In this document: piece after piece, positions 11,448 through 44,155 of the stretch
Layout: every line of letters begins with the position of its first letter
Numbering within the stretch: the stretch's first letter is position 1
Assembly (NCBI GenBank): GCA_024227475.1
Contig: JAAEUI010000008.1
Span: 1-45,213, forward strand
Reading direction: 5' to 3'
Origin: Paracoccaceae bacterium
GTDB taxonomy: Bacteria; Pseudomonadota; Alphaproteobacteria; Rhodobacterales; Rhodobacteraceae
DNA length: 45,213 bases
Position numbers and translations under genes: made by a program
Notes under the pieces: generated by a model
Told to the model about the DNA's origin: nothing
What the model saw: the letters and a program-made list of their open reading frames with translations, nothing else
Database searches by the model: none

Positions 11448-11564
11448 CTACAGCGTTTCACGTCTAATCTGATCCAGATTGAACTTGAAGCGCCGGTCCA
11501 AGTATCTGAAGTCTTAGCCTTTCACGGTTCATCGGCGATTCCAATGAACCGTGAAACGCTCTAG
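11448..11564 (-). repeat. Structured repeat, copy 1 (dctP/dctQ junction)
   Basis: On the minus strand the 117-bp copy begins CTAGAGCGTTT and ends AAACGCTGTAG. Its first arm is the hairpin CACGGTTCAT-N10-ATGAACCGTG, followed by CAGATACTT and TTCAATCTG boxes shared with copies 3 and 4. Its first TAG is the stop codon of dctP, so the element abuts or replaced the gene end. Confidence 0.85.
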
Positions 11565-24175: not shown

Positions 24176-24185
24176 GTCCGCCTCC

Positions 24186-25112: not shown

Positions 25113-25146
25113 GATAGTCTCCAGAATTTTAGGGGGGCGATTGTAT

Positions 25147-25173
25147 TTCCGGGCGGGGGTTCCCCGCCCGGAA
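25147..25173 (-). terminator. Hairpin between binding-protein and permease genes
   Basis: TTCCGGGCGGGG and CCCCGCCCGGAA form a perfect 12-bp stem with a three-base loop. No T-run follows on the minus strand. Placement after the binding-protein gene fits a 3' stabiliser or partial terminator that gives excess binding protein. Confidence 0.75.
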
Positions 25174-25184
25174 GTCTCAAAGGG

Positions 25185-26438
25185 TTATTGCTGAGGTGTG
25201 TACCAGCTGGCCAAGCCATCCTGCAGACGCTTGCCTGCATCTTCTGGGCTTTCGGTACCCTTGATTGCATTCACCGATGCATTCCAGGTATCGTTTTCGA
25301 GGTTCGGTGTGCCACGGGACAGGATCTGGTAAGTCGAGCGGATCGATGAATGGCATTTACCACGCCAGGACACGAATTCCTGTGCCAGCGGGTCCTCCAT
25401 AGCGACGTCATGGCTGGACAACGAGAAGAAACCTGGCAAGGCATTGGCGTAGAGTTTTGCAAACTCCTCCGAGCCAACCCAATTCAGAAGAGTCTTTGCT
25501 GCCTCGGCATTCGGGCTTTTGGCATTCAGTCCGATCGCGATGTCGGTGTGATCGGAAATGTAGCAGTCGTCACCCGCGTTCTGAACCGGCGGATTGAATG
25601 CGCCCATCTCAAAATCAACCAACGAATTAAAGCCGGAAATTTCCCAACTGCCTGCCGGATAGATCGCAGCGCGGCCCAAAGTGAAGATGTTCTGGCTGTC
25701 GGGATACGTTTGTGCTTCGTATCCGTCTCCCAGATATGCGCCCCATTTCGCCAGTGTGCGGTAAGGCGCAACCCAAGCTTCATCCGTCAGCTTCTGGTCA
25801 CCCGCGATCAGCGCCAACCGGCCCTCTTCGCCTTTCCAGTAATTCGGACCGATGTTGTTGTAGCCCATCGTCGCCGCTTCCCACTGGTCGTTTGTGCCCA
25901 TTGCCATCGGGGTGTAGGAACCGTCTTCCTTGATGGTTTCCAGGGCTGCAAAGAAGTCGGCTTCGGTTTCCGGAACACTAATGCCCAGTTCCTTGAACGC
26001 GTCTTTGTTATAAATAAAACCGTGGATCACAGAAGCCATCGGCACACAGAATGTGGCCGAACCATCGTCTGTCTGCCAGGCGGATTTTGCAACACCCGAG
26101 AAGTTGGCCATACCCTCGAGCGCCGACAGATCGGTCAAATGGCCAGCTTCATAAAGCGCCAGTGAGGCGTCAAACGGACGACAAGTGATCAAATCGCCTG
26201 CCGAGCCCGCATCAAGTTTGGAGTTCAGAACCGCATTGTATTCGGCCGGGGCTGAAGGTGTGAACTGAACCTTGATGCCAGGGTTTGCGGCTTCGAAGGC
26301 CGGGATGATCTTATTCTGCCACAGCAACAGATCGTCGTTGCGCCAGCTTTCGATGGTCAGGGTGGTGTCGGCTGCTGCTGCAGTCGCCCCTAGTATTGAG
26401 GTGGCCAGAAGTGCAAGGCCAAGTTTCGATTTAGACAT
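25185..26438 (-). CDS. Sugar ABC transporter substrate-binding protein
   Basis: The 417-residue periplasmic receptor has a signal peptide (cut near A-T-A-A-A-A-D at about 23) and the family 1 pattern T-L-T-I-E-S-W-R-N-D-D, N-P-G-I-K-V-Q-F-T near 55, the inner segment P-M-A-S-V-I-H-G-F-I-Y-N-K-D near 133 and an aromatic-rich pocket (N-Y-W-K, W-E). AGGGAGG precedes the ATG. It follows murQ by 28 bases, so its ligand is probably an amino sugar or a MurNAc-containing fragment. Confidence 0.9.
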   Translation of the reverse strand: MSKSKLGLALLATSILGATAAAADTTLTIESWRNDDLLLWQNKIIPAFEAANPGIKVQFTPSAPAEYNAVLNSKLDAGSAGDLITCRPFDASLALYEAGHLTDLSALEGMANFSGVAKSAWQTDDGSATFCVPMASVIHGFIYNKDAFKELGISVPETEADFFAALETIKEDGSYTPMAMGTNDQWEAATMGYNNIGPNYWKGEEGRLALIAGDQKLTDEAWVAPYRTLAKWGAYLGDGYEAQTYPDSQNIFTLGRAAIYPAGSWEISGFNSLVDFEMGAFNPPVQNAGDDCYISDHTDIAIGLNAKSPNAEAAKTLLNWVGSEEFAKLYANALPGFFSLSSHDVAMEDPLAQEFVSWRGKCHSSIRSTYQILSRGTPNLENDTWNASVNAIKGTESPEDAGKRLQDGLASWYTPQQ

Positions 26439-26466
26439 AGTGTCCTCCCTTGAGTTAAAGTCTGCG

Positions 26467-27381
26467 TTAAAGTCGTTCGATGGGGTTTGTCGGAGTCCGG
26501 AGTTCGGTTAAAGCCGGGCGCAGGTGGCCATCGCTGTGCTTTAGCAGCGCGACGGCCTGCTCCTGCGTTTGGGCGCCTGCGGCCAGCAGAACGGCCGGTT
26601 TTATCGCTCCGCCTGTCCGCGACAGGGTGTTTTCGGCTTGCTCTGGGCTGGCGCCGGTGATGGTTTTAACAATTGTAGCGGCGCGGGCGCGCAGTTTTGT
26701 ATTGTCGGCGATCAGGTTAACCATCATGCCGTCATGCACATGGCCCAACAAAACACCCATCAAAGTGGACATTAAATTGAGCGCCACTTTTTGTGCCGTT
26801 CCGGCACCCAGACGTGTTGAGCCAGCCACGACTTCCGCCGGGGTCGCCAGGCAGATCGCAACGCTTGCCGTATCAAAAAGTGGCGCGCTACGGTTGTTGG
26901 CTATACATACGGTTTGAGCTCCGGCAAGCGTCGCCGCTCTGGCCAGCTGCAAGGCGTGTGGAGTAGTGCCGCTTGCGCTCAGCGCGATTACTAGGTCACA
27001 CGATTTGATTGTCCGGGCGAAAGTATCGGCCTCGGCGGTGTCATCCTCTGAATGACCCGGCATTGTGCCATCAGTGGGAAGCCCACCCGCCATGAGGATA
27101 GCTATCTGACTTTGCTCGATGCCGAAAGTCCCCGGTAGCTCCAGAGCGTCGGCCATAGCCATCAACCCCGAAGAACCCGCTGCTGTGTAGATTAGACGTC
27201 CGCCTGAACGAACTGTATGGGCCATCAGATGAGCAGCGGCCGCAATTTCGGTCAGAACAGGAGCGACGGCCTGTACTGCCTGTGATTGAGAATCGTGCAG
27301 ATGGCACAGAATATCTGCATCCGGCAGGGCATCCAGGCCCTTTGCCGCGGCGTGCAGGTACTCCGTTTGTTGCAACGACAT
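26467..27381 (-). CDS. murQ: N-acetylmuramic acid 6-phosphate etherase
   Basis: The 304-residue SIS-domain enzyme splits MurNAc-6-phosphate into GlcNAc-6-phosphate and D-lactate. Family glutamates are seen at Glu81 (L-E-L-P-G-T-F-G) and Glu112 (S-E-D-D), along with V-A-G-S-T-R-L-G-A-G-T-A-Q-K near 187. The usual G-T-S-G-R-L-G loop reads G-S-S-G-L-M-A, so the arginine is missing. GGGAGGGAA precedes the ATG. It heads the ABC operon and is divergent from the kinase, pointing to MurNAc or peptidoglycan-sugar salvage. A relaxed SIS isomerase or etherase is the alternative. Confidence 0.82.
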   Translation of the reverse strand: MSLQQTEYLHAAAKGLDALPDADILCHLHDSQSQAVQAVAPVLTEIAAAAHLMAHTVRSGGRLIYTAAGSSGLMAMADALELPGTFGIEQSQIAILMAGGLPTDGTMPGHSEDDTAEADTFARTIKSCDLVIALSASGTTPHALQLARAATLAGAQTVCIANNRSAPLFDTASVAICLATPAEVVAGSTRLGAGTAQKVALNLMSTLMGVLLGHVHDGMMVNLIADNTKLRARAATIVKTITGASPEQAENTLSRTGGAIKPAVLLAAGAQTQEQAVALLKHSDGHLRPALTELRTPTNPIERL

Positions 27382-27410
27382 TCGATTCCCTCCCGAGGAT
27401 GGGAATATAA

Positions 27411-27425
27411 TACCCTTTTAATACC
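27411..27425 (-). promoter_or_regulatory. GGTA-N7-GGTA site on the murQ side
   Basis: On the minus strand the site reads AGGTATTAAAAGGGTAT, two GGTA direct repeats 11 bp apart. It lies just upstream of the murQ start and resembles the site at 27532-27546. Likely operator of the linked GntR/UTRA regulator (inference). Confidence 0.5.
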
Positions 27426-27531
27426 TATTGTCTACCATTTTCTAATTGTGGCGGAAATATGACGCATTTTGAAGTATTTAGCGTGGCATTTTCCGCTATT
27501 GGCTCCAAATAGGCCTTTCTTTGCGATCAAA

Positions 27532-27546
27532 GGTATTATATAGGTA
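27532..27546 (+). promoter_or_regulatory. GGTA-N7-GGTA site on the kinase side
   Basis: AGGTATTATATAGGTAT has GGTA direct repeats 11 bp apart, as at 27411-27425. It overlaps the ribosome binding region of the kinase start at 27551, so binding here could block both transcription and ribosome loading. Confidence 0.5.
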
Positions 27547-27550
27547 TCTT

Positions 27551-28441
27551 ATGCTTGAGTCGGATGACATGTGCCTGGTTGGCGTCGATGGGGGTGGCAC
27601 CAGCTGCCGGATCGGGCTTTTGCACCGTGGAGTTCGAACCGAAGTTAAAGTTGGCAAAGCAAATGTTTCAACCAATTTGGGCGGCGCAATTCACACGATT
27701 ATCCAGGGTATGGACAGCGTTGCAGAAAAGGCAGGAGTATCAAAAGATACTCTGTATCAGGGCAATGCCTACCTTGGGCTTGCCGGGGTTACCGGGCCAG
27801 AAGTGACCGCAACTGTTGCTGCGGGTTTGCCATTTAGGAACATCGTTGTTGAAGACGATCGCATTTCTGCGGTCGTTGGCGCATTGGAAGATCAGGATGG
27901 TGTCGTCGCCGGTATCGGTACTGGCTCGTTTTTGTCGCGGCAATCGCAGGGCAAAATCCGCTTCATAGGTGGCTGGGGATTTCAGTTGGCTGACGAGGCC
28001 TCTGGGGCTTGGCTGGGCCGGGCTCTGCTTTCTCGTGTGTTGCGCGTCGTCGACGGAATCGCAGAGCCGACAAAGCTCACGAAAACTGTCTTTGCTGAGT
28101 TTGGTAACCAGGCGGGGGGTGTTGTCATCTTTAGTCTGAACGCCAGCCCGGCGGATTACGCTCAACTTGCCCCGCAAGTCATCGATGCCGCAGCGCTAGG
28201 AGACGAGGCAGCGATCAAGTTGATGGATGAGGGTGCGCGATTTATCGAAAGCGGCTTGACTGCAATCGGATGGCAGCCTGGCGAACCATTGTGCCTGATG
28301 GGCGGCGTTGCTCGTCACTACAAACCCTATCTGGGTTCTGATTTTCTTACATCCCTGATCGCGCCAAAAGGAAAGGCGCTGGACGGGGCGCTGGCATTGG
28401 CTTCCCGCTTGGGAGCAGGAACCGAGAGGCGATCCGCATGA
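27551..28441 (+). CDS. BadF/BadG-type amino-sugar kinase (GlcNAc/MurNAc kinase)
   Basis: The roughly 296-residue ASKHA-fold protein phosphorylates a sugar with ATP. Motifs are V-G-V-D-G-G-G-T-S near residue 8 (phosphate 1), the middle V-A-G-I-G-T-G-S near 120 (phosphate 2) with G-G-W-G-F-Q-L-A-D-E-A-S-G-A-W-L-G, and C-L-M-G-G-V-A near 250 (adenosine). These match the GlcNAc kinase/MurK branch of the BadF family. The ATG at 27551 has AGGT seven bases upstream; M-C-L-V-G at 27569 is an alternative. Four-base overlap with the GntR gene. Next to murQ and nagA, GlcNAc and MurNAc are the best guesses. Confidence 0.85.
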   Translation: MLESDDMCLVGVDGGGTSCRIGLLHRGVRTEVKVGKANVSTNLGGAIHTIIQGMDSVAEKAGVSKDTLYQGNAYLGLAGVTGPEVTATVAAGLPFRNIVVEDDRISAVVGALEDQDGVVAGIGTGSFLSRQSQGKIRFIGGWGFQLADEASGAWLGRALLSRVLRVVDGIAEPTKLTKTVFAEFGNQAGGVVIFSLNASPADYAQLAPQVIDAAALGDEAAIKLMDEGARFIESGLTAIGWQPGEPLCLMGGVARHYKPYLGSDFLTSLIAPKGKALDGALALASRLGAGTERRSA

Positions 28442-29196
28442 ATGTTGCAAAATTCCTTGACCCCAATAGTTGGATCGATGGCTCAATAGGCCCACTTTAC
28501 GTCCGTTTGCGCAAACGGATCGAAGACGGCATCGAAAGTGGTGTGCTTGAACCCAACACACCCTTGCCTCCGGAACGTGAAATCGCAAGTCTTACCGCAT
28601 TATCCAGAGTAACGGTTCGCAAAGCGATAGAAGAGCTCGTCGACCGGGGAGTTATCGTCCAAATTCAGGGCTCCGGTTCATTCGTTACTGAGAAAAAGGC
28701 CCGCGTAGAACAATCTTTGTCCCGCCTCACATCATTTACAGAGGACATGGAACGCCGCGGCATGGCCTCGGAATCTAAGTGGCTGGAGCGAGGAATTTTC
28801 ATACCGTCGCCGGACGAAGTCGTGGTTCTGGCATTAGGGGCGAGCGACTCGGTTTCGCGCATCACTCGCCTTCGAATCGCCGGAGACAGACCGATGGCTT
28901 TGGAGCGGGCATCGTTGCCGCTCGATATCCTACCTAATCCAACAGCTGTGGAAAAATCACTCTATGAAGTTCTGCAGGCATCTGGAAACCTGCCTGTTCG
29001 GGCAATTCAAAAGATATCCGCCATCAATCTTGATGAAAAAGACGCGGAATTGTTGGGAGTCCCAGAAAATTCAGCTGGGCTACACATCGAACGGACATCC
29101 TACCTTTCAAGTGGGCGCGTGGCGGAGTTTACCAGATCAAAATACCGCGGCGATGCCTACGATTTTGTAGCCGAGCTGCGACTTGCAACGAATTAG
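28438..29196 (+). CDS. GntR/HutC-family regulator with UTRA domain
   Basis: The 252-residue protein has an N-terminal GntR winged helix (P-L-Y-V-R-L-R-K-R-I near 20, P-P-E-R-E-I-A-S-L-T-A-L-S-R-V-T-V-R-K-A-I near 44-64, G-S-G-S-F-V) and a C-terminal UTRA ligand domain. NagR/DasR-like members sense GlcNAc-6-phosphate or GlcN-6-phosphate. It sits between the kinase and deaminase genes and probably controls both divergent amino-sugar operons. Confidence 0.9.
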   Translation: MNVAKFLDPNSWIDGSIGPLYVRLRKRIEDGIESGVLEPNTPLPPEREIASLTALSRVTVRKAIEELVDRGVIVQIQGSGSFVTEKKARVEQSLSRLTSFTEDMERRGMASESKWLERGIFIPSPDEVVVLALGASDSVSRITRLRIAGDRPMALERASLPLDILPNPTAVEKSLYEVLQASGNLPVRAIQKISAINLDEKDAELLGVPENSAGLHIERTSYLSSGRVAEFTRSKYRGDAYDFVAELRLATN

Positions 29197-29204
29197 GAAA
29201 AGAT

Positions 29205-30236
29205 ATGTCTGACACGATCAGCCAAATGCGGCGTGAAGTTCTCGAGATTCCAACGGCAGTGGATCGTCTTTTGACGTCCGGGGCGAGCGATATTCAGCAC
29301 GCTGCAGCGGCAGTTCGCACTCTTGATCCGAACTATTTGGTAACAGTGGCGAGGGGGTCTTCGGACCATATCTGTACCTATCTGAAGTACGCAACCGAGA
29401 TCCTCTTAGGCAGGCCTGTTGCCTCGATCGGTCCGTCTGTTGCTTCCATATTCAAAGCCCCCCTGCATCTCGACAACAGCCTGTGTATTTCCGTCTCTCA
29501 ATCTGGCCAGAGCCCCGACATTGTTGAAATGGCGCGTGCCGCCAAACGCGATGGATCTTTGTCGGTCGCGATCACAAATGACCCCGCATCACCTTTGGCC
29601 AATACCAGTGATCACACGCTGCAGATTCACGCCGGACCAGAGCGGAGCGTCGCAGCGACCAAGACCTTTGTAACCTCGGCCGTCGCCGGGCTGTCGCTGC
29701 TGGCAGAATGGCGCGGCGACGCAGATCTGCGCGGGGCCATACACACCCTGCCTGAGGCGCTGGAGCGTGCGATTTCGATCGATTGGCCTGAGGTTCGCGC
29801 CGCAATCGGTGAGGAGTCCTCGTTGTTTACACTGGGTCGCGGACCGGTTTGGGCAGTTTCCAATGAAGCAGCGCTGAAGTTTAAGGAAACGTGCCAGATC
29901 CACGCTGAGAGTTACTCTTCCGCAGAAGTTCTTCACGGGCCGGTTTCGATTGTGGATGAAGGGTTCCCAGTCCTGTGCTTTGCCGCCGCTGACGCTGCCC
30001 AGGATGCTCTTGTCGAAATAGCTGATCAGGTTGCCGCAAAGGGCGCTAAGGTTTTTGTAACTTCAAAACGCAGCAAGGCAGCGGTTGGAATTGACCACAT
30101 TCGTACAGATCACGCACTCACCGATCCGCTGAGCCTGATTGTATCCTTCTACGCTATGGTAGAGCGCGTCGCAGCATCACGCGGGATCAACCCGGACGCA
30201 CCGCGCCACCTAAAAAAAGTCACGGAAACCGTATGA
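29205..30236 (+). CDS. SIS-domain glucosamine-6-phosphate deaminase (NagB-II type)
   Basis: This 343-residue protein has two SIS domains (V-A-R-G-S-S-D-H near 49, S-V-S-Q-S-G-Q-S-P-D near 98, then G-R-G-P-V-W-A-V-S-N-E-A-A-L-K near 206). It looks like the isomerase half of GlmS without the glutaminase domain, as in NagB-II/AgaS-type deaminases that turn GlcN-6-phosphate into fructose-6-phosphate and ammonia. AGGAAAAG precedes the ATG; the stop overlaps nagA by four bases. No classical NagB is in the window. Confidence 0.85.
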   Translation: MSDTISQMRREVLEIPTAVDRLLTSGASDIQHAAAAVRTLDPNYLVTVARGSSDHICTYLKYATEILLGRPVASIGPSVASIFKAPLHLDNSLCISVSQSGQSPDIVEMARAAKRDGSLSVAITNDPASPLANTSDHTLQIHAGPERSVAATKTFVTSAVAGLSLLAEWRGDADLRGAIHTLPEALERAISIDWPEVRAAIGEESSLFTLGRGPVWAVSNEAALKFKETCQIHAESYSSAEVLHGPVSIVDEGFPVLCFAAADAAQDALVEIADQVAAKGAKVFVTSKRSKAAVGIDHIRTDHALTDPLSLIVSFYAMVERVAASRGINPDAPRHLKKVTETV

Positions 30237-31405
30237 CACAGGCCCTGACAGCGTACTGTGGTGCTTCGATCTTTGATGGGAGCCAGATGCATGAAGGGTG
30301 TGCTCTTCTGGTCAATGGCGCGGTAGTTGTTGGCGTTGTGCCGGAGAAGGAACTTGCGAACGGGACCGAAGTTCACCGGTTGGAGGAGGGGATTCTGGCT
30401 CCGGGATATGTTGATCTGCAGGTCAACGGTGGTGACGGCATCATGTTCAACGACGAACAGTCGGTTGCCGTTCTGCGACGGATTGCCGCCGCACATGCAA
30501 GCCTTGGGGCAACGTCGATACTGCCGACCCTGATTACCGATACGCAGGAAAGAACGATTGCGGCTATTGACGCCGTGGAACAGGCCGTTGCCCAGGGCGT
30601 GCCGGGGATCATCGGGTTACATCTGGAAGGTCCGCATCTGGCCCAGTCGCGCAAGGGTGCCCATGATCCAGCGTTAATTCGCCCCATGCAGGACGGCGAT
30701 CTTGATCTTCTGTTAGCGGCCGCCTCCCGTTTGCCAACCCTGAAAATTACGATTGCGCCTGAAAACGTAACGCCGCAACAAATGAGAAAACTAGCAGACG
30801 CTGGGGTTATTCTGTCGCTCGGCCACACGGATGCGAGTTTTAGGGATTGCGAGGTAGCAGTTGAGAACGGCGTTTCCTGTGTAACCCATTTATTTAACAC
30901 CATGAGCCAGCTTAGCAATCGGGAGCCCGGTTTGGTTGGTGCTGCGATAACACTGGGCGGGCTTTCCGCCGGGCTGATTGCCGATACAATCCACGTACAT
31001 CCTGCTTCCATCGCAGTGGCGCTGCAGGCCAAGAAAGGCCCGGGTCGAATTTTTCTGGTGAGCGATGCCATGGCAGTCGCCGGATCGGACATTACTGAGT
31101 TCATTCTCAACGGGCGGATTGTAAGACGCAACGCAAACCGACTGACACTGGAAGACGGTACCCTGGCGGGGGCCGATCTGGACCTTTCGACCGCGATCAG
31201 TGTGGTATCGGATATTACCGGATTCACACCTTCAGAATCGATCGCCATGGCGACATCAATTCCCGCCGCCGTGATCAAGCGGGAACAGGACTGTGGAACA
31301 ATTTACAACGGGGGGTCGGCCGATTTCATCTTTCTGGATGGCTCCAATCAGCTGGCTGGGGTCTGGCAACACGGGGAGAGAGTTTCGATACCGGCGGAAA
31401 ACTGA
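30233..31405 (+). CDS. nagA: N-acetylglucosamine-6-phosphate deacetylase
   Basis: The 390-residue amidohydrolase removes acetate from GlcNAc-6-phosphate. The metal-binding Glu in L-H-L-E-G-P-H-L, the histidines in L-G-H-T-D-A and T-H-L-F-N-T-M-S, the I-H-V-H-P loop and catalytic Asp in V-S-D-A-M-A are present, and the beta-sandwich start G-Y-V-D-L-Q-V-N-G-G-D-G is typical. Last gene of the plus-strand operon; a structured repeat begins 27 bases after the stop and may act as terminator. Confidence 0.95.
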   Translation: MTQALTAYCGASIFDGSQMHEGCALLVNGAVVVGVVPEKELANGTEVHRLEEGILAPGYVDLQVNGGDGIMFNDEQSVAVLRRIAAAHASLGATSILPTLITDTQERTIAAIDAVEQAVAQGVPGIIGLHLEGPHLAQSRKGAHDPALIRPMQDGDLDLLLAAASRLPTLKITIAPENVTPQQMRKLADAGVILSLGHTDASFRDCEVAVENGVSCVTHLFNTMSQLSNREPGLVGAAITLGGLSAGLIADTIHVHPASIAVALQAKKGPGRIFLVSDAMAVAGSDITEFILNGRIVRRNANRLTLEDGTLAGADLDLSTAISVVSDITGFTPSESIAMATSIPAAVIKREQDCGTIYNGGSADFIFLDGSNQLAGVWQHGERVSIPAEN

Positions 31406-31432: not shown

Positions 31433-31551
31433 CTAGAGAGTTTTGAGTTTTGTTTGAATCACAAACGAAACTCAAAACTGCAACGTTAACAGCACCATAG
31501 ACTGGCGTTTTCTACATCAACTTGTCTCAAGTTAATGTAAAAACGCTTTAG
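31433..31551 (+). repeat. Structured repeat, copy 2 (after nagA)
   Basis: The 119-bp copy begins CTAGAGAGTTTTGAGTTT and ends AAAAACGCTTTAG. Its first hairpin pairs AGTTTTGAGTTT with AAACTCAAAACT around TTTGAATCACAAA-type loop sequence identical to that of copy 3. The distal half has diverged from copies 1, 3 and 4. It begins 27 bases after the nagA stop. Confidence 0.8.
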
Positions 31552-35955: not shown

Positions 35956-37251
35956 TCACTTGAATGTTCCCTGCTCGCGAACGGTGCGGATGATGATCTC
36001 CATCATCTCGAACTGGGACTCTGCTGCGACGTCCTCAAAGTAGACATGGCTCGGCCAGGGCTGGGCACGGAACCGGTCTTCAGGCATCTCGACTTTGCTT
36101 GCCACTTCCTTTTGAGCTGCGACAAATGCCTCTGCGATGTCTTTGATCTCAACTTTGGCCGCCGCCAGGTCCCCGACGCTGTTTGCATCAATCTGACACG
36201 AGCCTACACCTGTGGTCAGCGGCACGCCCCGCTGGACCGCCTGATCTACATAGAACGGCACCTCCACTTTGTCAGCTTCAAGACGCATAATGAATTTCGG
36301 ACACACCATGTGCTTGTGATCGGTTAGCTCACGCAGGCCAACTTTGGGAGTGTTATCTGCATTGTTTGCCCCCCGACGCCGTCCTCCACGATCCCGTTTG
36401 GCCACAGTCGCCACGTGGTCCCCTCGATAATTACAGTCAAATAGACGGTCTCCCCACTCCTTTCCCTCAGCCATCCGTCGCATGGACCGGATTGCCATGT
36501 TCTTGCAGTTGTCCGGGCCAATAAAGAAAGGCGAACCGGACGCATCCGATAGTTCTATCCAGCCGTTAGGAAACCTTTCGACAAAATGCTCGATCCAAGG
36601 TGTCAGAACCGTATCAGCAAGGAAATCAAGAAGTTCGTTCACAAATTCTGGGTCATGCACCACGTCCGCAAGCAACGGTTCTTGCCCATAGATGTCGGCG
36701 GCAAAACTGTAGGGTGCCGATATCTGCAATAGCGGTTCCATCCCAGTCAGACGCTCAGTTTCAGCCAGTATGCCGGTGATGATCTTGGCCACACCAGTAT
36801 CAAAATCCGGTGTCCTTAAGTCGCGCCAGTTGTCGCGATTGATCAGCGGCTCATCAGGATCCGAACCCGGCGGGAACCGATCAGGATACATCATCTTCTG
36901 GCCGACTTGTTCGCAAGTGAAGCCGTATAGCGCCCATGCAGTATACACCTTGTCCACGCCGACCAGACGGCTGGTTATCAGGTTCGTACGGGCGTACCTC
37001 TGTGAATCGCCCTTGTAGTACGCTGCCGAGTCGATCCCATAAAGGTCGTGCAGGATTGCCAACGCCAACATGTGTATTGACGCAGAAACATGCACCCGAT
37101 CCACGGGCGCCGGCGTTGCAAATTCGGCATCCATTTTACCTTCGATCGTGTCATCGAAAATCTGGCGCAGCTCTTCGCGGGCTTCCGCATCTCCTGCCTT
37201 CCAGCGGGCAATCAGATGCAAGCCAGCTGGGAATTTGGGGTAATCAGCCAC
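35956..37251 (-). CDS. Uroporphyrinogen-decarboxylase-superfamily protein (methyltransferase-like)
   Basis: The 431-residue protein resembles the URO-D/MtaA-like TIM-barrel superfamily: A-Y-Y-K-G-D near 77, the W-A-L-Y-G near 106, I-S-A-P-Y-S-F-A near 177, W-I-E-L-S-D-A-S-G near 231, and a late T-G-V-G-S-C-Q-I-D near 347. It is longer than haem-pathway HemE (about 340-350) and lacks the HemE N-terminal arginine motif, so it is not HemE. The zinc motif H-x-C of corrinoid methyltransferases is not clear; the nearest is His314-x-x-Cys317 with Cys352. No corrinoid protein is nearby. It is divergent from a MocR regulator and shares a 51-bp operator with potD. Function unknown; a methyl- or carboxyl-transfer step on an imported amine is a guess. 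Confidence 0.7.
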   Translation of the reverse strand: MADYPKFPAGLHLIARWKAGDAEAREELRQIFDDTIEGKMDAEFATPAPVDRVHVSASIHMLALAILHDLYGIDSAAYYKGDSQRYARTNLITSRLVGVDKVYTAWALYGFTCEQVGQKMMYPDRFPPGSDPDEPLINRDNWRDLRTPDFDTGVAKIITGILAETERLTGMEPLLQISAPYSFAADIYGQEPLLADVVHDPEFVNELLDFLADTVLTPWIEHFVERFPNGWIELSDASGSPFFIGPDNCKNMAIRSMRRMAEGKEWGDRLFDCNYRGDHVATVAKRDRGGRRRGANNADNTPKVGLRELTDHKHMVCPKFIMRLEADKVEVPFYVDQAVQRGVPLTTGVGSCQIDANSVGDLAAAKVEIKDIAEAFVAAQKEVASKVEMPEDRFRAQPWPSHVYFEDVAAESQFEMMEIIIRTVREQGTFK

Positions 37252-37344
37252 GGTATGATCCTTACATCTTTCTAAGGTTTGGCCCGTCCAAAAGTCGACA
37301 GCCCAAAAAATATCACGAGTCGCGACCCATATTGCGCTTATTAG

Positions 37345-37395
37345 GTGGGTATGTGAAAATACCCACTACTGCGAATTACATATACCCACATGGGC
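37345..37395. promoter_or_regulatory. MocR composite operator, copy 1
   Basis: Three half-sites are visible: GTGGGTAT (37345-37352), ATACCCAC (37359-37366) and ATACCCAC (37382-37389). The first two form a perfect inverted repeat with a six-base centre (GTGAAA); the last two are direct repeats 23 bp apart. It lies between the URO-D-like and MocR start codons. MocR proteins such as GabR bind direct repeats of ATACCA type, so this pattern fits. Confidence 0.8.
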
Positions 37396-37425
37396 GCAAA
37401 TGCTGCAGATGAAAGGTGACGTAAT

Positions 37426-38913
37426 ATGAAACAATCCGGCGGCGCTCTTCTGTCAATGCTTAACCTAGACCGGCTAAGCAAAACGACGCTCACACGCCAG
37501 CTTGAGAACAACATTCGCAAGGCTGTATTAGATGGCAAGTTGCCGGCGGCCACTCGTATGCCTTCCAGCCGTCAGTTAGCCGTAGACCTTGGTGTTTCAC
37601 GAATAACGATAAAGAATGCGTTCGAGCAATTGACCAGTGAAGGCTTTCTTGAAACCCAATACGGGTCTGGCACCTATGTCGCGCAATTGTCTACAGGTGA
37701 CCTGCCGGTGATTGCCACCTCGTCACGTCGTCGAACACACACACCCAAGACCAGCCCGATCTCACCTCATGTTGAGCGGATCCAGCAATCACTTGCTACT
37801 ACGCGGCTCTCGCAAGTCCGCGCTTTCCGGCCTGGCATTCCTGCGCTGGATGTTTTTCCTCGTCGCGCCTGGGCGGAGGTGTATTCTCGTGCCATTCGAC
37901 ACCACGACAGTTATTTGCTTGGGTACGGCCCTTCCAGCGGCCTTGACGAACTTAAAGCGGCGATAGCACGACACGTCTTTGACAGCCGCGGTATCGAGTG
38001 TCAGCCCGACCAGATCATCATCACTTCTGGCGCTCAACAGGCCTTTTCCCTCATCCTTCTGACGCTGCTCACTCCGGGTAATACGATTTGGATGGAAGAC
38101 CCAGGCCACATTGCTTTTCGCGACGCCGCAAAATTCCAGGGGTTGCAGATCGACCCCGTTCCGTTAGACGCCGAGGGTTTTTCACTTAGCTATGCGCGCG
38201 CGAACTATGTGCCTTGCAGTCTCATGTTCGTAACCCCTTCTCATCAGCATCCCCTTGGCATGACCATGAGCCTCACTCGTCGTCTTGACCTGCTTGAATT
38301 GGCTCAGTCACAGGAAAGTTGGGTCATTGAGGATGACTATGACAGTGAATTTCATTACGAAGAACGTCCACAACCGGCGCTCAAAGCCCTCGATAAGCAT
38401 GGGCGCGTGCTTTATGTCGGCAGTTTTTCGAAATCCATGTTCCCGGCGATGCGCCTTGGCTATCTGATCTGCCCGCTGGAGCTTGGCCCTGCCTTCGCTG
38501 CCGCCCAAACACTGCTAAGCCAGAACGTCTCGCTTTTGCAGCAAAAGGCGATGACCTATTTCATGGAAGACGGCAGTTTTAACGCGCACCTTCGCCGCAT
38601 GAAACTTGTCTACAAGAAGCGCCGCGACATCCTTGTCCACGCGCTCGAGGAACATGCGTGTTCCCTTTTGCGGCCAGAGCCTTGTCGTGCTGGTATGCAT
38701 CTGGTTACTCTTTTTTCGGACTCTTCGGTTCGGGATCACGAAATAGCCAAAAGACTTTGGAATGCCGGGATCGATTGCCTCCCGCTTTCAATATTCCGCG
38801 ATCAGGCCGTGGTCGCCCCCGGCTTGCTTCTTGGCTTTGCCTGCGCCCCAGAGGATCAGATTAGTGGAAAGATTCGTCAGGCTGTGCAGGTGATGGGCGC
38901 AAATGCTCTTTGA
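37426..38913 (+). CDS. MocR-family (GntR-aminotransferase) regulator
   Basis: The 495-residue chimera has a GntR winged helix (L-P-A-A-T-R-M-P-S-S-R-Q-L-A-V-D-L-G-V-S-R near 40-60, G-S-G-T-Y-V-A near 85) joined to a fold-I aminotransferase-like domain (Y-G-P-S-S-G-L near 165, T-S-G-A-Q-Q near 200, D-D-Y-D-S-E-F near 306 and the PLP lysine in S-F-S-K-S near 338). Such proteins bind PLP and an amino compound and regulate neighbouring transport or catabolic genes. Divergent from the URO-D-like gene, with potDABC downstream under a matching operator. Confidence 0.93.
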   Translation: MKQSGGALLSMLNLDRLSKTTLTRQLENNIRKAVLDGKLPAATRMPSSRQLAVDLGVSRITIKNAFEQLTSEGFLETQYGSGTYVAQLSTGDLPVIATSSRRRTHTPKTSPISPHVERIQQSLATTRLSQVRAFRPGIPALDVFPRRAWAEVYSRAIRHHDSYLLGYGPSSGLDELKAAIARHVFDSRGIECQPDQIIITSGAQQAFSLILLTLLTPGNTIWMEDPGHIAFRDAAKFQGLQIDPVPLDAEGFSLSYARANYVPCSLMFVTPSHQHPLGMTMSLTRRLDLLELAQSQESWVIEDDYDSEFHYEERPQPALKALDKHGRVLYVGSFSKSMFPAMRLGYLICPLELGPAFAAAQTLLSQNVSLLQQKAMTYFMEDGSFNAHLRRMKLVYKKRRDILVHALEEHACSLLRPEPCRAGMHLVTLFSDSSVRDHEIAKRLWNAGIDCLPLSIFRDQAVVAPGLLLGFACAPEDQISGKIRQAVQVMGANAL

Positions 38914-38992
38914 TCCTATACTCCCAAGATCCAAAAAGTGGCTTAGCATTGGCGAAAGAGCATCGCCGGATTGGTTGATATTTTGGCACTAT

Positions 38993-39108
38993 CTAGGGCA
39001 TTTCTGGTTTTGTTTGAATCACAAACGAAACCAGAAGCGCAACGACGCCAGATACTTAGATCGGAGTTTCAGGTTCAATCTGGTTTAGCTTAAACCGGAA
39101 ACGCTCTA
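38993..39108 (+). repeat. Structured repeat, copy 3 (after mocR)
   Basis: The 116-bp copy begins CTAGGGCATTTCTGGTTT and ends GGAAACGCTCTA. The first hairpin pairs TTCTGGTTT with AAACCAGAA; CAGATACTT and TTCAATCTG follow, and a second arm TGGTTTA-GC-TAAACC precedes the end. It starts 80 bases after the MocR stop. Confidence 0.85.
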
Positions 39109-39123
39109 ACTGCTGCATGCCGG

Positions 39124-39174
39124 CCAATGTGGATATATGTAAATCACTAAGGTGGGTATTTTCACATGCCCACG
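39124..39174. promoter_or_regulatory. MocR composite operator, copy 2 (upstream of potD)
   Basis: This is the reverse complement of the module at 37345-37395. GTGGGTAT-TTTCAC-ATGCCCAC (39153-39174) differs from copy 1 at one of 22 bases, and the other box (39124-39143) at 2 of 20, with the same nine-base spacer length. Its orientation relative to potD equals that of copy 1 relative to the URO-D-like gene. Confidence 0.8.
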
Positions 39175-39430
39175 TGATGGGTCCAATATTAGCCAAGGCG
39201 CCTATCACCCGGATATGCAGCGTATGAAACCGCTCATACCGGATCCCGCAACAGATGAGTTGAAAGCTGAAGTAACCCCTGATTTGGCTTTGGCAAGAAT
39301 GTGATCTAAGGTCCGACTCAATTGGAAGTCGGAAAAAATAGGGAAATGGAAATATTGGCAATGCCGCCAATATGTTTTCGTGAGCATAGATGTAAAAAAG
39401 AATGTTCACAAATCTTCGGGAGGAAGAAAC
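39175..39430 (+). other. Leader between operator and potD
   Basis: No gene is seen in these 256 bases. GTATGA-N6-TCATAC (about 39224-39241) and TCCGACT-N8-AGTCGGA (39312-39333) could fold in a long potD leader. The second hairpin is followed by A's, not T's, so it is not a terminator in the potD direction. Confidence 0.4.
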
Positions 39431-40570
39431 ATGACAATAACCAAAAGCGGCGTTAATCGCCGTTCATTTCTGAAAGCAGGGACAGCTGCAGGTGCCGTTG
39501 CGCTGGCTTCGCCTGCACTGGTTTCAAAAGCTCTTGCTGCGTCTGGTGAGTTGGATATCCTGATGTGGTCAGACTATTTGCCAGATGGCTTTTTGGCTGA
39601 ATTCAAGGCTGAAACAGGTATCACTGTGAACTTCACGGGGATTGGTTCCAATGAGGAGCTGATCAACAAGATGAAGGCGTCTAACGGTTCTGGCGCAGAT
39701 ATCATTTCACCGACCAACAACCGCTCTTTGCAATGGGGCCCGCTTGAACTGTTGCAAGCCTTCGACATGAGCCGCGTCCCCATCGACAAAGTGAATCCTG
39801 CGATGGCGAAAATTGGCCCGGATGCATGGAACTTCGGTGATGGCAGTACATGGCTTCCTCATATTTGGGGCACCGAGGGTATGGCTTGGCGCATTGATCT
39901 GTGGTCTCCCGCTGATGCATCAGGCGTGCCTTCTTATGGTGCGGTTTGGGCAGAAGAAAACGCAGGCAAGACAATGATGCGTGCACACTCCGGTATGTTG
40001 GGTGCGGGCCTCTACATGGAAGGTTCGGGCCAAATGGATCCCGGCTCGGTCTGGGCTGCCTATGAGTCAGAAGAAAACATGCGCAAAACCTGGGGCATGA
40101 TCGCTGATTGGTGTATCGCACGTAAGAATAATCTCAAACTGATCTGGAACGATGCTGACACCCAGAAAAATGGCCTGTTGAACGACGGTGTTATTGTTGG
40201 GCAGACTTGGGATGGACCCCCACTGGCGTTGAAATCTGCCGGCGAGCCGGTAACCTACCAGGCACCGAAAGAGGGTTCGATGGCTTGGGTTGACGGTATG
40301 GCAATTCCAAAAGGCGCCAAAAACATTGACCAGATATATGCCTTCATCGAATTTGCGTATCGCGCAAAACCAGCTGGTGTTGCTATTGACGGCCATGGAT
40401 ATAATTCACCTGTTCTTGGGGCGGACACCCATGCCAGCGCGCAATATGCTAAAAACTTCGCCGAAGCATACCCCGGTGACGCTCTTGCCAATCTGAATGC
40501 TTGGCCGGCAGAGGCACCCTGGTATGCCGATGTGCGCACTGAATATGTGAACAAATTCAAAAGCGCATAA
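39431..40570 (+). CDS. potD: PotD-type ABC transporter binding protein
   Basis: The 379-residue receptor carries a twin-arginine-like signal (N-R-R-S-F-L-K-A-G, then a hydrophobic core and A-L-A near 36), so it may be exported folded. The mature start L-D-I-L-M-W-S-D-Y-L-P and T-G-I-T-V-N-F-T-G-I-G-S-N-E-E match polyamine-type receptors. GGGAGGAAGAAAC precedes the ATG; an upstream frame start at 39380 lacks support. The ligand is probably cationic but not necessarily a polyamine. Confidence 0.88.
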   Translation: MTITKSGVNRRSFLKAGTAAGAVALASPALVSKALAASGELDILMWSDYLPDGFLAEFKAETGITVNFTGIGSNEELINKMKASNGSGADIISPTNNRSLQWGPLELLQAFDMSRVPIDKVNPAMAKIGPDAWNFGDGSTWLPHIWGTEGMAWRIDLWSPADASGVPSYGAVWAEENAGKTMMRAHSGMLGAGLYMEGSGQMDPGSVWAAYESEENMRKTWGMIADWCIARKNNLKLIWNDADTQKNGLLNDGVIVGQTWDGPPLALKSAGEPVTYQAPKEGSMAWVDGMAIPKGAKNIDQIYAFIEFAYRAKPAGVAIDGHGYNSPVLGADTHASAQYAKNFAEAYPGDALANLNAWPAEAPWYADVRTEYVNKFKSA

Positions 40571-40580
40571 ATAAAACAAG

Positions 40581-40618
40581 AAGTCCCCGACTGTGATATC
40601 GATCACGGACGGGGACTT
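40581..40618 (+). terminator. Hairpin after potD
   Basis: AAGTCCCC (40581-40588) pairs with GGGGACTT (40611-40618), and inside it GTGAT pairs with ATCAC. No T-run follows. It separates potD from potA and probably limits readthrough or protects the potD message. Confidence 0.7.
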
Positions 40619-40675
40619 GCCGGAAGTTACCGGCAAAGTACCAATGGGACGTAAAATACTTTTTGGGGGAATCAT

Positions 40676-41788
40676 ATGGGTGCCGGGGTAACTGTTAACC
40701 TGGAGAACGTTTGGATCAAATTCGGGGATTTTGTCGCCGTCAGAGAAGCCAATGTAAATATCAAGGGCGGGGACTTTTTCTCGTTCCTTGGGCCATCGGG
40801 CTGCGGGAAAACCACAATTCTACGCGCTGTTTCGGGCTTTCTAGACCCTTCCGAAGGGCGGGTTTTGATCGGTGGAAAAGATATGGCAGGAATTGGCCCG
40901 AACAAGCGGCCAACGGCACTGATTTTCCAGAATCTTGCACTGTTTCCCTTGATGAAAATCTGGGAGAATATCACGTTTTCGATGGAAGTCGCAGGCGCCT
41001 CTGCGGGTGATCGCCGCAAACGCGCCGACGAACTGCTGGACATGATCGCCCTGAGCGGACAGGGGGACAAGTTTCCCTCTGAACTCTCCGGTGGACAAAA
41101 ACAACGCGTCGCGATCGCCCGCGCCTTGTGCGCCGAACCCGATGTGTTGCTGCTGGACGAGCCGCTTTCAGCGCTTGATCTGAAACTGCGCCAGCATATG
41201 CGGACCGAACTGCGTGAGATACAGCAGCGGGTCGGAATTTCGTTTATTTATATCACTCACGATCAGGGCGAGGCTCTGACCATGTCCGACAGCGTGGCTG
41301 TGATGCGCGCTGGTATCATCGACCAAATCGCCGGTGGCCATGAAATTTATGACCACCCGGCCACGCCTTTTGTGGCGTCTTTTGTTGGTGAAAACAACGT
41401 TTTCCGGGGCAAGCTCCAGTCGGTCAATGGCAATGAAGCTGTTATCAGAACCAACAGGTCGGGTGATCTTCTGGCGCAGATAACACCAACTGCCGTGGGC
41501 AAAATGAAAGCTGGCGATGATGCGATGATGTTTGTGCGACCAGAAGCCCTTGCTTTGGGCGAGGCGAGCCCGGATTCCAAAACTACGATTTCGGCGAATG
41601 TCCTGAACGAGGAATTCGAAGGCAACTCCTACAGCGTGTTCCTTGAAGGCGATGGCGGCAAGCAGATTAAAATGTCGCTGCCAAACCTGGGGCAGGATCG
41701 CGAATCTTCCAAAGGCAGCAGTTTGGCGTTGCACTACGATGCGTCCACCGCGGTGGTTATGCCTGCGGGCGAGCTGGCGTCGGAATAG
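40676..41788 (+). CDS. potA: PotA-type ABC transporter ATPase
   Basis: The 370-residue ATPase has Walker A G-P-S-G-C-G-K-T-T near 39, signature L-S-G-G-Q-K-Q-R near 138, Walker B V-L-L-L-D-E-P and T-H-D-Q switch, then a TOBE domain (F-V-R-P-E-A near 286). GGGGGA precedes the ATG. It follows potD after the hairpin and precedes potB by nine bases. Confidence 0.92.
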   Translation: MGAGVTVNLENVWIKFGDFVAVREANVNIKGGDFFSFLGPSGCGKTTILRAVSGFLDPSEGRVLIGGKDMAGIGPNKRPTALIFQNLALFPLMKIWENITFSMEVAGASAGDRRKRADELLDMIALSGQGDKFPSELSGGQKQRVAIARALCAEPDVLLLDEPLSALDLKLRQHMRTELREIQQRVGISFIYITHDQGEALTMSDSVAVMRAGIIDQIAGGHEIYDHPATPFVASFVGENNVFRGKLQSVNGNEAVIRTNRSGDLLAQITPTAVGKMKAGDDAMMFVRPEALALGEASPDSKTTISANVLNEEFEGNSYSVFLEGDGGKQIKMSLPNLGQDRESSKGSSLALHYDASTAVVMPAGELASE

Positions 41789-41797
41789 GGGGAAATC

Positions 41798-42727
41798 ATG
41801 AAAAAGCCCATGATTTTTTCTGAATTTTTCAAAAACAACGGCCCTGTTATGGGCAGTATCCTGATGGTGCTGGTGGGGTTTTGGATCATTGTCCTGATCG
41901 TTCTGCCACAGCTTTCGATGCTGGACTTCTCATTCAGGTTTAACCTGCCTCCTGCCGAACTTGGAGGCCCAAAAGATAACTATACGCTCAAAAACTACAA
42001 ACAGCTGGTGTATGGCGCTGCTGGGTCCGAAGGGACGTATAACACGGTCGACCTTATGGTCTTCGTGCGCACGATCGTCACCGCGATATTTGTAACAATT
42101 GCAAATATTATCATGTGTTATCCGCTGGCCTATTACCTTGGGCAGTCAAAAGGCACCAGTTTCGCGCGCCTTCTGGTCGTGATGCTGATAATCCCTTACT
42201 GGATCAACGAAATCCTGCGCGCTTTTGCCTTGCGTATTATTTTCGGTGAAACTGGGCTGATCAACGAAGTGCTGACGTTTTTGCACCTCACGGCCGAACC
42301 TATCGACTTTATCCGTCAGAACTATGCGCTCTATGCGGGTTTGGGCTATGCCTACATCCTGCTGATGCTGTTTCCGATGTACAATGTCATTGAAAGCCTC
42401 GACCGAAATCAGATCGAGGCGGCTCGGGACATGGGGGCCAGTTGGATACGTATTCACCGGCGCATTGTCATTCCGCATGCAAAACCAGGGATCGCGTCCG
42501 GCGCGACAATGGTGTTCATGCTGTCAGCCGGGGCACTGGCCGTGCCACAAGTGTTGGGCGGTCCGTCCAGCCTGTGGTTCACCCAGTTGGTTTATCAATG
42601 GTTTAACGATTCTCTCAACTGGCAACAGGGCTCGGCTTATGCGATCGTTCTGTTGTTCTCCAGTATCGCGATCGTCCTGACCCTGATGCGTATCTTCAAG
42701 GTGAACATGGGGGATATCGGCAAATGA
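41798..42727 (+). CDS. potB: PotB-type ABC transporter permease
   Basis: The 309-residue permease has about six helices and the EAA loop E-A-A-R-D-M-G-A-S-W-I-R-I near 208. A roughly 50-residue periplasmic segment follows the first helix, as in PotB. GGGGGAA precedes the ATG; the stop overlaps potC by four bases. Confidence 0.9.
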   Translation: MKKPMIFSEFFKNNGPVMGSILMVLVGFWIIVLIVLPQLSMLDFSFRFNLPPAELGGPKDNYTLKNYKQLVYGAAGSEGTYNTVDLMVFVRTIVTAIFVTIANIIMCYPLAYYLGQSKGTSFARLLVVMLIIPYWINEILRAFALRIIFGETGLINEVLTFLHLTAEPIDFIRQNYALYAGLGYAYILLMLFPMYNVIESLDRNQIEAARDMGASWIRIHRRIVIPHAKPGIASGATMVFMLSAGALAVPQVLGGPSSLWFTQLVYQWFNDSLNWQQGSAYAIVLLFSSIAIVLTLMRIFKVNMGDIGK

Positions 42728-43899
42728 GTCCGAAAGTTATTTCCCGTCTCGCGCTTGGAGCATATCTGCTGATATTCTTCGGGTATCTCCTTGGACCCCT
42801 GGTGGTGATGAGCCTGACAGCTTTTAACTCTTCTGGCTTTCCGTCGGTTTCTCCCTGGGCCTGTTTCACCTTTGAATGGTTTGACGTTTTGTTCAAAGAT
42901 CAACGCATCCTGAATGGGATCAAGAACAGCATTATCATTGGTATTGGCACGGTGATCGTATCGATAGCAATTGGTTTGTCGGCAGCCCTTGTGCTGACAC
43001 AGGTATGGCCGAAATTGCGGACGACCTATTACACCATTATCATTGCGCCGATCCTTATCCCCGGCGTGGTTCTCGGGATATCAACGATTGTGTTTTGGGA
43101 TCGAGTCAGCCGGCTGTTAGGGCCTTCGACAGATGCCCTGTTTCATAACGGAATTTTCCTGACCATCTTGGGCCAATCCACCTTTATTGCCTCTTACGCG
43201 ATGCTTATCTTTGTTGCACGTCTAGCGCGATTTGACCCCGGTCTGACCGAGGCGGCGCTTGATCTCGGAGCTACCCACACGCAGGCATTTCGCAAAATCC
43301 TGCTGCCGTTCATGCGTCCTGCGATCGCGTCGGCGGCCGTATTGGCGTTTCTGGCCTCGTTTGAAAACTACAACACAACCACATTCACCTTCGGAAATTA
43401 CCCGACACTGACAATCGAACTGGCGCAAAAAGTGCGCTATGGGATTAATCCGTCGATATCGTCACTGGCGTTTATCATTGTTGTACTCACGGTTTTCGGT
43501 GCTCTTGCGTTTGAGGCGTATCGCCGGAATACCGGCAACAAGGAACGCGCCAAGGAAGGCAAAGCTGCACCAAAATCTGGTGGCATTCTTCCGGGCTTCC
43601 TGCGTGGCAACCCAGCCGCAGTCGTTTTGGTTCTGCTCTGCTTCACAGTGATCACTGCGGTTGGAACAGCCCAAAGCTATAGTCCAGAACAATGTAAGAT
43701 GGATGTGCGAGCCGCCAAGCAGCTGGAAATTGACCTTCGTATCGAAGCGCTGGAAGAGAAACGCCGTCTTCGTGAGCTGGGGAAAACCCACGAAGGTCCG
43801 GATATCTTTGGGACCCCAGAAGTGGAATCCGAAGACAAGGCCCCAAGTTCAAGCGGCGCTTTTGGTGACGTATTTAAAGATTTGGAACAGGGTGACTAA
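42724..43899 (+). CDS. potC: PotC-type ABC transporter permease with C-terminal extension
   Basis: Residues 1-266 form a normal PotC-type permease with six helices and the EAA loop E-A-A-L-D-L-G-A-T near 176. Usual PotC proteins end near 260-280, but this one runs to 391. The extra part has a basic linker (270-295), a seventh hydrophobic helix (about 297-316), a charged, probably coiled-coil stretch (325-352, rich in E, K, R and L) and an acidic tail ending G-D-V-F-K-D-L-E-Q. The frame is open throughout, so it is one polypeptide rather than a sequencing join, unless a late frameshift fused a small downstream gene. Confidence 0.88.
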   Translation: MSPKVISRLALGAYLLIFFGYLLGPLVVMSLTAFNSSGFPSVSPWACFTFEWFDVLFKDQRILNGIKNSIIIGIGTVIVSIAIGLSAALVLTQVWPKLRTTYYTIIIAPILIPGVVLGISTIVFWDRVSRLLGPSTDALFHNGIFLTILGQSTFIASYAMLIFVARLARFDPGLTEAALDLGATHTQAFRKILLPFMRPAIASAAVLAFLASFENYNTTTFTFGNYPTLTIELAQKVRYGINPSISSLAFIIVVLTVFGALAFEAYRRNTGNKERAKEGKAAPKSGGILPGFLRGNPAAVVLVLLCFTVITAVGTAQSYSPEQCKMDVRAAKQLEIDLRIEALEEKRRLRELGKTHEGPDIFGTPEVESEDKAPSSSGAFGDVFKDLEQGD

Positions 43900-43965: not shown

Positions 43966-44080
43966 TAGAGCGTATCTCGTCTAATTGGATTCACAGAAGG
44001 ACCGAGATACGCAGCAACATCAGATACTTAACCCGGCATTTCCATTTCAATCTGAAACCGATTAAATAGGAAACGCTCCA
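43966..44080 (+). repeat. Structured repeat, copy 4 (after potC)
   Basis: The 115-bp copy begins TAGAGCGTATCTCG and ends GGAAACGCTCCA. The first arm pairs CGTATCTCG with CGAGATACG. CAGATACTTA and TTTCAATCTG boxes match copies 1 and 3. It begins 67 bases after the potC stop and ends one base before an IS5-type start codon. Confidence 0.85.
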
Positions 44081-44081
44081 A

Positions 44082-44155
44082 ATGGGCACAGGCCGATTGG
44101 TTATCTCCGATCGCCAATGGGAGCAGATGGAGTCGCACTGCCTTGATCGCGAGAC
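44082..44155 (+). pseudogene. IS5-family transposase, N-terminal scrap
   Basis: The frame opens M-G-T-G-R-L-V-I-S-D-R-Q-W-E-Q-M-E-S-H-C-L, the usual first helix of IS5-group transposases (S-D-x-Q-W-x-x-x-E). Homology fades after about 25 residues and no DDE core follows before the flavin reductase gene. Confidence 0.6.

Follow-up and report, generated by a model that had tools for sequence, protein, structure and literature searches.

Regulators of the MocR/GabR type (GabR, TauR, PdxR, EutR/EnuR, OapR) combine a winged helix-turn-helix (wHTH) with an aminotransferase domain, and their divergent target genes are served by direct and inverted operator boxes. In the main text of a regulon survey the assigned roles mostly concern pyridoxal 5'-phosphate (PLP), gamma-aminobutyrate (GABA), taurine and ectoine, the commonest motif layout consists of two direct boxes plus one inverted box (32% of regulons), and the words "uroporphyrinogen" and "URO-D" do not occur there, supplements aside (PMC5320631). 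The locus described here differs from these divergons in its target, a gene for a protein resembling uroporphyrinogen decarboxylase (URO-D). It is located on contig JAAEUI010000008.1 (C8) of the draft genome GCA_024227475.1 of a Paracoccaceae bacterium (4.23 Mb, 79% complete), whose first 45,213 nucleotides form the window analysed. The URO-D-like gene and mocR are divergent, with a three-box operator (op1) between them, and a second operator (op2) is present in the 517-bp gap between mocR and the genes of a PotDABC-like ATP-binding cassette (ABC) importer. The two-operator MocR regulon is likely to be real and is probably functional; that it serves an aminoalkyl phosphate or phosphonate, e.g. 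phosphoethanolamine, is given a probability of about 0.5. The features concerned are:

35956-37251, minus strand: URO-D-like gene, 431 aa, divergent target of op1 (Pfam/NCBIfam scores, alignment with 14 homologues)
37345-37395, plus strand: op1, inverted box GTGGGTAT followed by direct boxes ATACCCAC at 23-bp distance
37426-38913, plus strand: mocR, MocR-type regulator (GntR wHTH and aminotransferase fold)
38940-38989, minus strand: mocR 5'-end remnant, inverted and decayed (38/50 identical; ATG start now ATC)
38994-39108, plus strand: repeat resembling a miniature inverted-repeat transposable element (MITE) inside the inverted duplication, with terminal inverted repeats and TA at both ends (by eye)
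39123-39173, minus strand: op2, second operator, inverted box toward potD
39431-40570, plus strand: potD, PotD-like binding protein with Tat-type signal
40676-41788, plus strand: potA, PotA-like ATPase (best NCBIfam models PhnT2, 324 bits, and PotA, 306 bits, both under cut-off)
41798-42727, plus strand: potB, PotB-like permease (Pfam/NCBIfam)
42724-43899, plus strand: potC, PotC/PotI-like permease, its C-terminus longer than the PotC/PotI models
43966-44084, plus strand: second direct copy of the MITE-like repeat (68%), immediately 3' of potC

A preliminary description of this DNA had proposed that one duplicated operator joins the URO-D-like gene and the importer, with three differences among 42 box bases and a nine-base spacer. 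Compared as reverse complements, op1 and op2 are identical at 42 of 51 positions (39 of 42 in the boxes, 3 of 9 in the spacer); the number of box differences and the length of the spacer are exactly as described. The gene calls agree with the proposed anatomy, one operator type of the commonest MocR layout does stand before both the URO-D-like gene/mocR and potDABC, and each inverted box lies on the side of its target, at 93 bp from the URO-D-like start (op1) and 257 bp from potD (op2). The position of op1 was right; that of op2 was off by one base, since 39124-39174 matches op1 at 13 of 51 positions and 39123-39173 at 42. Mononucleotide shuffling of the 517-bp gap, repeated 300 times, yields at best 28 of 51 identities to op1, and an unprompted repeat search of the window recovers the pair as an 80-nt inverted repeat (75%). 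The exact motif GTGGGTAT-N5-7-ATACCCAC occurs once in the draft genome, at op1, from which op2 deviates by one base. A looser two-box pattern, its spacing two bases off, finds op1, op2 and a site with three mismatches at C611:35891-35924 (L046; L, G and C designate loci, genomes and contigs). Another two-box pattern, at up to two mismatches, has no match in this genome, op1 and op2 included.

The duplication extends beyond the operators. Two separate inverted pairs are found in the window, 37329-37408 with 39110-39189 and 37416-37465 with 38940-38989, the latter being the copy of the mocR start, whose 38 of 50 identities are reached by none of 1000 shuffles (maximum 28) and by none of 82 other window chunks (at most 30 of 50). 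Within the copy, the pairs are separated by a 115-bp element bounded by terminal inverted repeats. When it is left out, with borders taken as the best of 56 choices, they unite into one inverted duplication of 132 columns with one gap and 99 identities (75%). Full copies of this MITE-like repeat (about 115 bp) occur three times in the window, at 38994-39108, 43966-44084 (68%) and 11449-11564 (72%), besides a fragment at 31447-31485; by eye, TA is present at both ends in two of the full copies and at one end of the 44-kb copy. Two direct copies flank op2-potDABC on either side, and BLAST of the repeat flanks against plasmids gave no match. On the simplest reading, op1 and the mocR start were copied in inverted orientation and the coding remnant then decayed, or else a second mocR, formerly divergent from potD, was lost. 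The decayed remnant, the inserted repeat, the 257 bp to potD and the low score of op2 with a matrix built from relatives only would also suit a mere fossil of the duplication with no part in regulating potDABC. That explanation is quite improbable, as the boxes (39/42) are better preserved than the remaining duplication (60/90; Fisher p 0.001), for which reason those of op2 look to have been kept by selection.

At a threshold of E <= 1e-60, and with the own genome counted each time, the family sample has URO-D-like homologues in 7 of 394 genomes, the order sample in 8 of 390 and the phylum sample in 1 of 398. This makes 11 further genomes, to which a scan of genome contigs adds two loci. They also occur on four Leisingera plasmid records, two of which correspond to the G491 and G569 loci. 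Most named relatives from the homologue searches belong to the Rhodobacterales (Roseovarius, Leisingera, Ruegeria, Aliiroseovarius), and the host is accordingly a probable Roseobacter-type, and probably marine, bacterium. Fifteen URO-D loci were compared with that of the window, an own-genome paralogue on C99 among them; in six (L013, L014, L016, L027, L029 and L030, the last two closely related to each other), a MocR of 44-45% identity adjoins the URO-D-like gene. Each of the six gaps contains a site built in the same way, roughly TGGR-N-TATACCCAYTAT-N-TATARRCCCAYT, whose CCC triplets stand at a 23-bp distance. Two such operators are found in L014 (G164), one before URO-D and one before the DUF47 and PHO4 phosphate transporter genes. 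A pattern search of the 11 genomes gave eight matches, distributed over six genomes: seven are the known gap sites (0-2 mismatches), and one, with 3 mismatches, is located at another place in G164; none was found in the five genomes lacking an adjacent MocR. The pattern, derived from those same sites, tests their rarity elsewhere and not their existence. L016 has an additional, weaker site upstream of a GlxA-type AraC gene; this site was missed by the pattern search and scores 23 bits with a matrix that had included the main site of L016. Relatives of this AraC gene adjoin URO-D in L005 (51%) and L027 (28%). MocR matches were obtained in 408 plasmid records; the four Leisingera MocRs adjoining URO-D rank first (43.9-44.5%), the next reaching 39.7%. 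URO-D and PotD co-occur in three of the seven URO-D genomes of the family sample (0.3 expected; hypergeometric p 0.002, or 0.02 when the own genome is left out, kinship being ignored). The own-genome paralogue (C99:1734-3023, L020; 52-53% identical) has no MocR found adjacent and adjoins an open reading frame (ORF) that by eye resembles a NAD(P) transhydrogenase subunit.

Several observations tell against a shared regulon. Nine of the 15 URO-D loci have no adjacent MocR, some lying at contig ends (L005 and L026 are little informative for this reason). The reversed operator pattern yields 14 matches at up to three mismatches in the same 11 genomes; therefore, the search shows only that good matches are confined to the MocR/URO-D gaps. 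With the relatives-only matrix, op1 is the top hit of the window (18.3 bits, the next 13.6), and op2 ranks only fifth (11.1 bits), below weak hits upstream of potD in L033 (15.7 bits) and of mocR in L081 (12.5 bits); neither of these has the CCC triplet in both boxes. Across 36 other loci the matrix scores highest within potC of L086 (17.6 bits) and next at the L033 site, and hits of this size are therefore chance or at best doubtful sites; L028 offers no more than a degenerate likeness of the operator (11.6-13.5 bits). None of the relatives examined has a clear operator upstream of potDABC, and potDABC for this reason appears to be a local recruit to the MocR regulon. PotDABC adjoins the MocR/URO-D pair only in the window genome, among the loci examined, and the joint arrangement is so far unique to it among the genomes examined. 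Of the conservation on which the preliminary description had made its proposal depend, that of the operator thus stands for the MocR/URO-D pair (6 of 11 related genomes), and that of the full set with PotDABC does not. In its scores, finally, the regulator exceeds the NCBIfam cut-off of PdxR, the vitamin B6 regulator (415 against 320 bits).

A PdxR function is not claimed, and no pdx gene turned up among the window genes in general profile scans. The assignment to MocR made beforehand is supported, with Pfam scores of 48 bits for GntR and 107 bits for Aminotran_1_2, a score of 446 bits for the NCBIfam rhizopine MocR model (cut-off 650) and a full-length match to GabR in the PDB (E 4e-60). The Lys of its SFSK motif aligns with the Lys of FSK in GabR, which we take to be the PLP-binding residue. 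As in the known divergons, the region between the two divergent genes contains an operator of repeated boxes.

The importer belongs to the same family as the polyamine importers PotDABC/PotFGHI, with which it shares the order binding protein-ATPase-two permeases and the aromatic cage. Relatives of its PotD (E <= 1e-110) are present in 17 of the 394 family genomes, own genome included, at 69-79% identity (one at 50%), and 17 of 407 plasmid records matching PotD reach 60-80%. Twenty-three loci were compared, 19 from genomes (one being a second G340 locus) and four from plasmids. In Escherichia coli PotD, polyamine is bound by the cage residues, by the acidic residues D168, E171 and D257, which serve its amino groups, and by Q327. 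By that numbering, all 23 sequences (that of the window and 22 relatives) retain W34, Y37, W229, W255, Y293 and D257. The equivalents of D168, E171 and Q327 are lost in all 23, as is Y85 (Asn in 22), which leaves D257 as the sole acidic residue of the set; a second alignment places the D168-E171 stretch slightly differently, again without acidic residues. The "polyamine-type" label of the preliminary description is not supported, and import of polyamines was rejected in view of these losses. The cage could still hold one amine, and the other end of the site, to judge from its residues, no longer suits a second; the cargo is probably a different, non-polyamine amine. The window ATPase does not reach the 2-aminoethylphosphonate (2-AEP) transporter model PhnT2 (324 against 457.7 bits). 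Before potD, PhoB boxes were looked for in the 23 loci, and the best matches have 3-6 mismatches, as at random positions.

The URO-D-like protein falls short of PF01208 (E 3.1e-4; 20.3 bits against a cut-off of 23.9), the family of uroporphyrinogen decarboxylase and MtaA-MtbA, with which it has a remote profile similarity and presumably a TIM-barrel fold in common. It differs from MtaA-MtbA in the lost zinc-ligand positions and in the rarity of its subfamily (7 of the 394 family genomes, own genome included). No match was obtained from PDB searches with the protein or with alignment A1 (15 sequences: window and 14 homologues, of which L017 starts at an internal ATG and lacks the N-terminus). 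The preliminary description had suggested demethylation, and a corrinoid- or tetrahydrofolate-linked demethylase could be seen in the weak similarity to methylcobalamin:coenzyme M methyltransferases (23 bits with the NCBIfam model, cut-off 244), in the MetE-like gene directly after URO-D in L004 and in C249, kept in 14 of 15 sequences. The zinc ligands of MtaA/MtbA are a conserved His-x-Cys and a Cys, and C249 lies elsewhere. Invariant in the 15 sequences are, among others, seven Arg (R85, R88, R95, R269, R276, R288, R323) and no Cys or His, some His being kept in 10-12 sequences. At the H-I-C-G position of two own-genome PF01208 proteins (L100, L101) the URO-D-like family has no conserved Cys, by a cross-family alignment that is weak; profile comparison with methyltransferases aligned 89 columns at a probability of 14%. 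Neither the window nor the scanned neighbour genes revealed a corrinoid protein gene, and a demethylase of this kind is most improbable. L100 and L101 are located on C273 and are read as corrinoid-type methyltransferases; by eye, the same stretch contains corrinoid-protein-like and activase-like ORFs, an apparent corrinoid demethylation system. The idea of corrinoid demethylation at the present locus was dropped, the genome's corrinoid-type methyltransferases being located on C273 instead. Homarine was also considered, and an open-licence PMC listing gave nothing recognisable as this gene set. A more speculative proposal is that the subfamily represents a metal-free URO-D-fold enzyme that cleaves the C-N, C-P or C-O-P linkage of the aminoalkyl phosphate or phosphonate taken up, or rearranges this compound, and that is induced through MocR by the same amine and coupled to the importer via the duplicated operator. 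We know of no such chemistry in the URO-D superfamily.

Genes of phosphate and phosphonate metabolism recur around both halves of the system in relatives. They were counted by tblastn with queries taken in part from the same loci (L016, L018, L033, L042, L089, L090), which match themselves. Near PotDABC (23 loci), NptA is present in seven, a PehA-like gene in eight, IMPase in three and the set of glutamine synthetase (GS)-like protein, aldehyde dehydrogenase (ALDH), iron-type alcohol dehydrogenase (Fe-ADH) and FGase in three; at least one of NptA, PehA-like and IMPase is found at 10 of the 23. One IMPase subfamily (39-83% identical to two references) occurs near URO-D in L004, L005 and L016 and near PotDABC in L035, L090 and L092. 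NptA is near URO-D in L005, PehA-like and PbfA in L015; L018, with a URO-D-like protein of only 39% identity, has a distant IMPase (27-31%), GDPD and a Ugp-like ATPase. In G340 (L016), MocR adjoins a URO-D-IMPase-FGase-GS run reaching the contig end, whose partial GS shares 81% identity with its counterpart in the G327 PotDABC operon. This run stops at the end of C14, and PotDABC begins at the start of C11 (L094); both may be one operon.

Weighing the other way, 13 of the 23 PotD loci possess none of NptA, PehA-like and IMPase, close relatives L082, L083 and L086 included, and an omega-aminotransferase or amine oxidase family gene is found instead among the neighbours in L081, L036 and L096. 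L031, the same plasmid locus as L032 in another Leisingera, has a stretch without the phn genes of L032, and the own genome holds a separate 2-AEP cluster with an IMPase-NptA pair. MocR may control both targets for an ordinary amine or omega-amino acid (taurine- or GABA-like, or polyamine-derived) containing no phosphorus, the phosphate genes of relatives being coincidental. The roles of most known MocR regulons fit this reading, as do the 13 loci without phosphate markers, the AptA-type omega-aminotransferase divergent to its own MocR in L081 (the closest PotD of the family sample) and the amine oxidase family gene of L036. Against it stand the 10 PotD loci with NptA, PehA-like or IMPase, the URO-D loci with PHO4, IMPase, GDPD, NptA or phosphonate genes, and the lost second acidic site of PotD; it is possible and the lesser candidate, a phosphate- or phosphonate-bearing amine having roughly an even chance.

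That the substrate is 2-AEP itself, or a hydroxylated or methylated form, and not a phosphate ester is rather unlikely. PhnW-PhnA-PhnY lie about 5 kb from MocR/URO-D in L032, PbfA occurs in L015, and in the own genome the 2-AEP cluster (C628:1-10991, L042) runs DeoR-IMPase-Na/Pi cotransporter-2-AEP ABC transporter-LysR-PhnW, its genes passing the PhnS2, PhnT2 and PhnW models. That genome thus already has a 2-AEP transporter set, the IMPase and PehA families act on esters and not on C-P bonds, and L031 lacks the phn genes. Export of inorganic phosphate (Pi) during growth on 2-AEP, which would favour this substrate, has been published (PMC8316502). By eye, the partial ORF that follows in L042 resembles phosphonoacetate hydrolase.

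A comparable physiology is that of Phaeobacter MED193, where, according to the text of PMC10132767, phosphate starvation raises PotA/PotD (MED193_11419, 11424) only with phoB, MED193_11439 is a GlpR-type gene, and the gamma-glutamyl pathway of ethanolamine (EtoX, ETAGA, GAADDH, GETADH, GGAH) is induced on phosphorylethanolamine. The MED193 genes, in the order PotA, PotD, two unnamed tags and GlpR, are arranged much as PotA-PotD-EamA-NptA-DeoR are in L093, a likeness by order alone. Compared by type and not by sequence, the pathway enzymes match GS-like, ALDH, Fe-ADH and FGase genes accompanying PotDABC in L084, L090 and L092, and GS and FGase accompanying URO-D in L016. MED193 differs in taking up ethanolamine by a tripartite ATP-independent periplasmic (TRAP) transporter after extracellular hydrolysis (PMC10132767); here an ABC importer and an intracellular phosphatase would take their place.

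For the aminoalkyl phosphate/phosphonate system that we favour, a MocR divergon (URO-D-like gene and mocR reading outwards from op1) would have gained an ABC importer when op2 arose as an inverted copy of op1 and the mocR start, the remnant decaying, the MITE-like element entering and the boxes being retained. MocR with PLP and an amine ligand would bind both operators, and bound MocR would repress its own gene and activate the URO-D-like gene and potDABC. The cargo of the importer would be a primary amine that also has an anionic end; an aminoalkyl phosphate or phosphonate is the likeliest, e.g. phosphoethanolamine or a related compound. Judging from the gene content of relatives, an IMPase-type phosphatase may free Pi, the Na/Pi cotransporter dispose of it and the gamma-glutamyl pathway oxidise the amino alcohol. 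The URO-D-like protein would work without zinc, on this substrate or on a compound derived from it. The locus would then offer a tagged entry (regulator, operator, importer, enzyme) to an uncharacterised route for a nitrogen- and probably phosphorus-containing metabolite in Rhodobacterales, and with it a lead, open to testing, to a nutrient pathway not yet described. It also presents a candidate new activity within the URO-D superfamily, suggests other cargo for a group of "spermidine/putrescine"-like transporters, and would be a single-locus example of a MocR regulon gaining a transporter through operator copying.

Among the remaining neighbourhoods, agmatinase genes adjoin IMPase in L035, L047, L049, L051 and L052, from which uptake of a phosphagen is a minor possibility. 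In L048, IMPase adjoins a choline/ethanolamine-kinase-family gene and a FAD/GCV_T oxidoreductase. The contig of L004, labelled as a gammaproteobacterial metagenome-assembled genome, has IMPase, URO-D-like, MetE-like and sulfoacetaldehyde acetyltransferase genes side by side. An Rfam scan of the whole window gave nothing reaching the gathering score. At 21289-31405, the window contains an apparent amino-sugar utilisation cluster with ABC transporter, SIS-domain, GntR/UTRA regulator, BadF-type ATPase and NagA genes.

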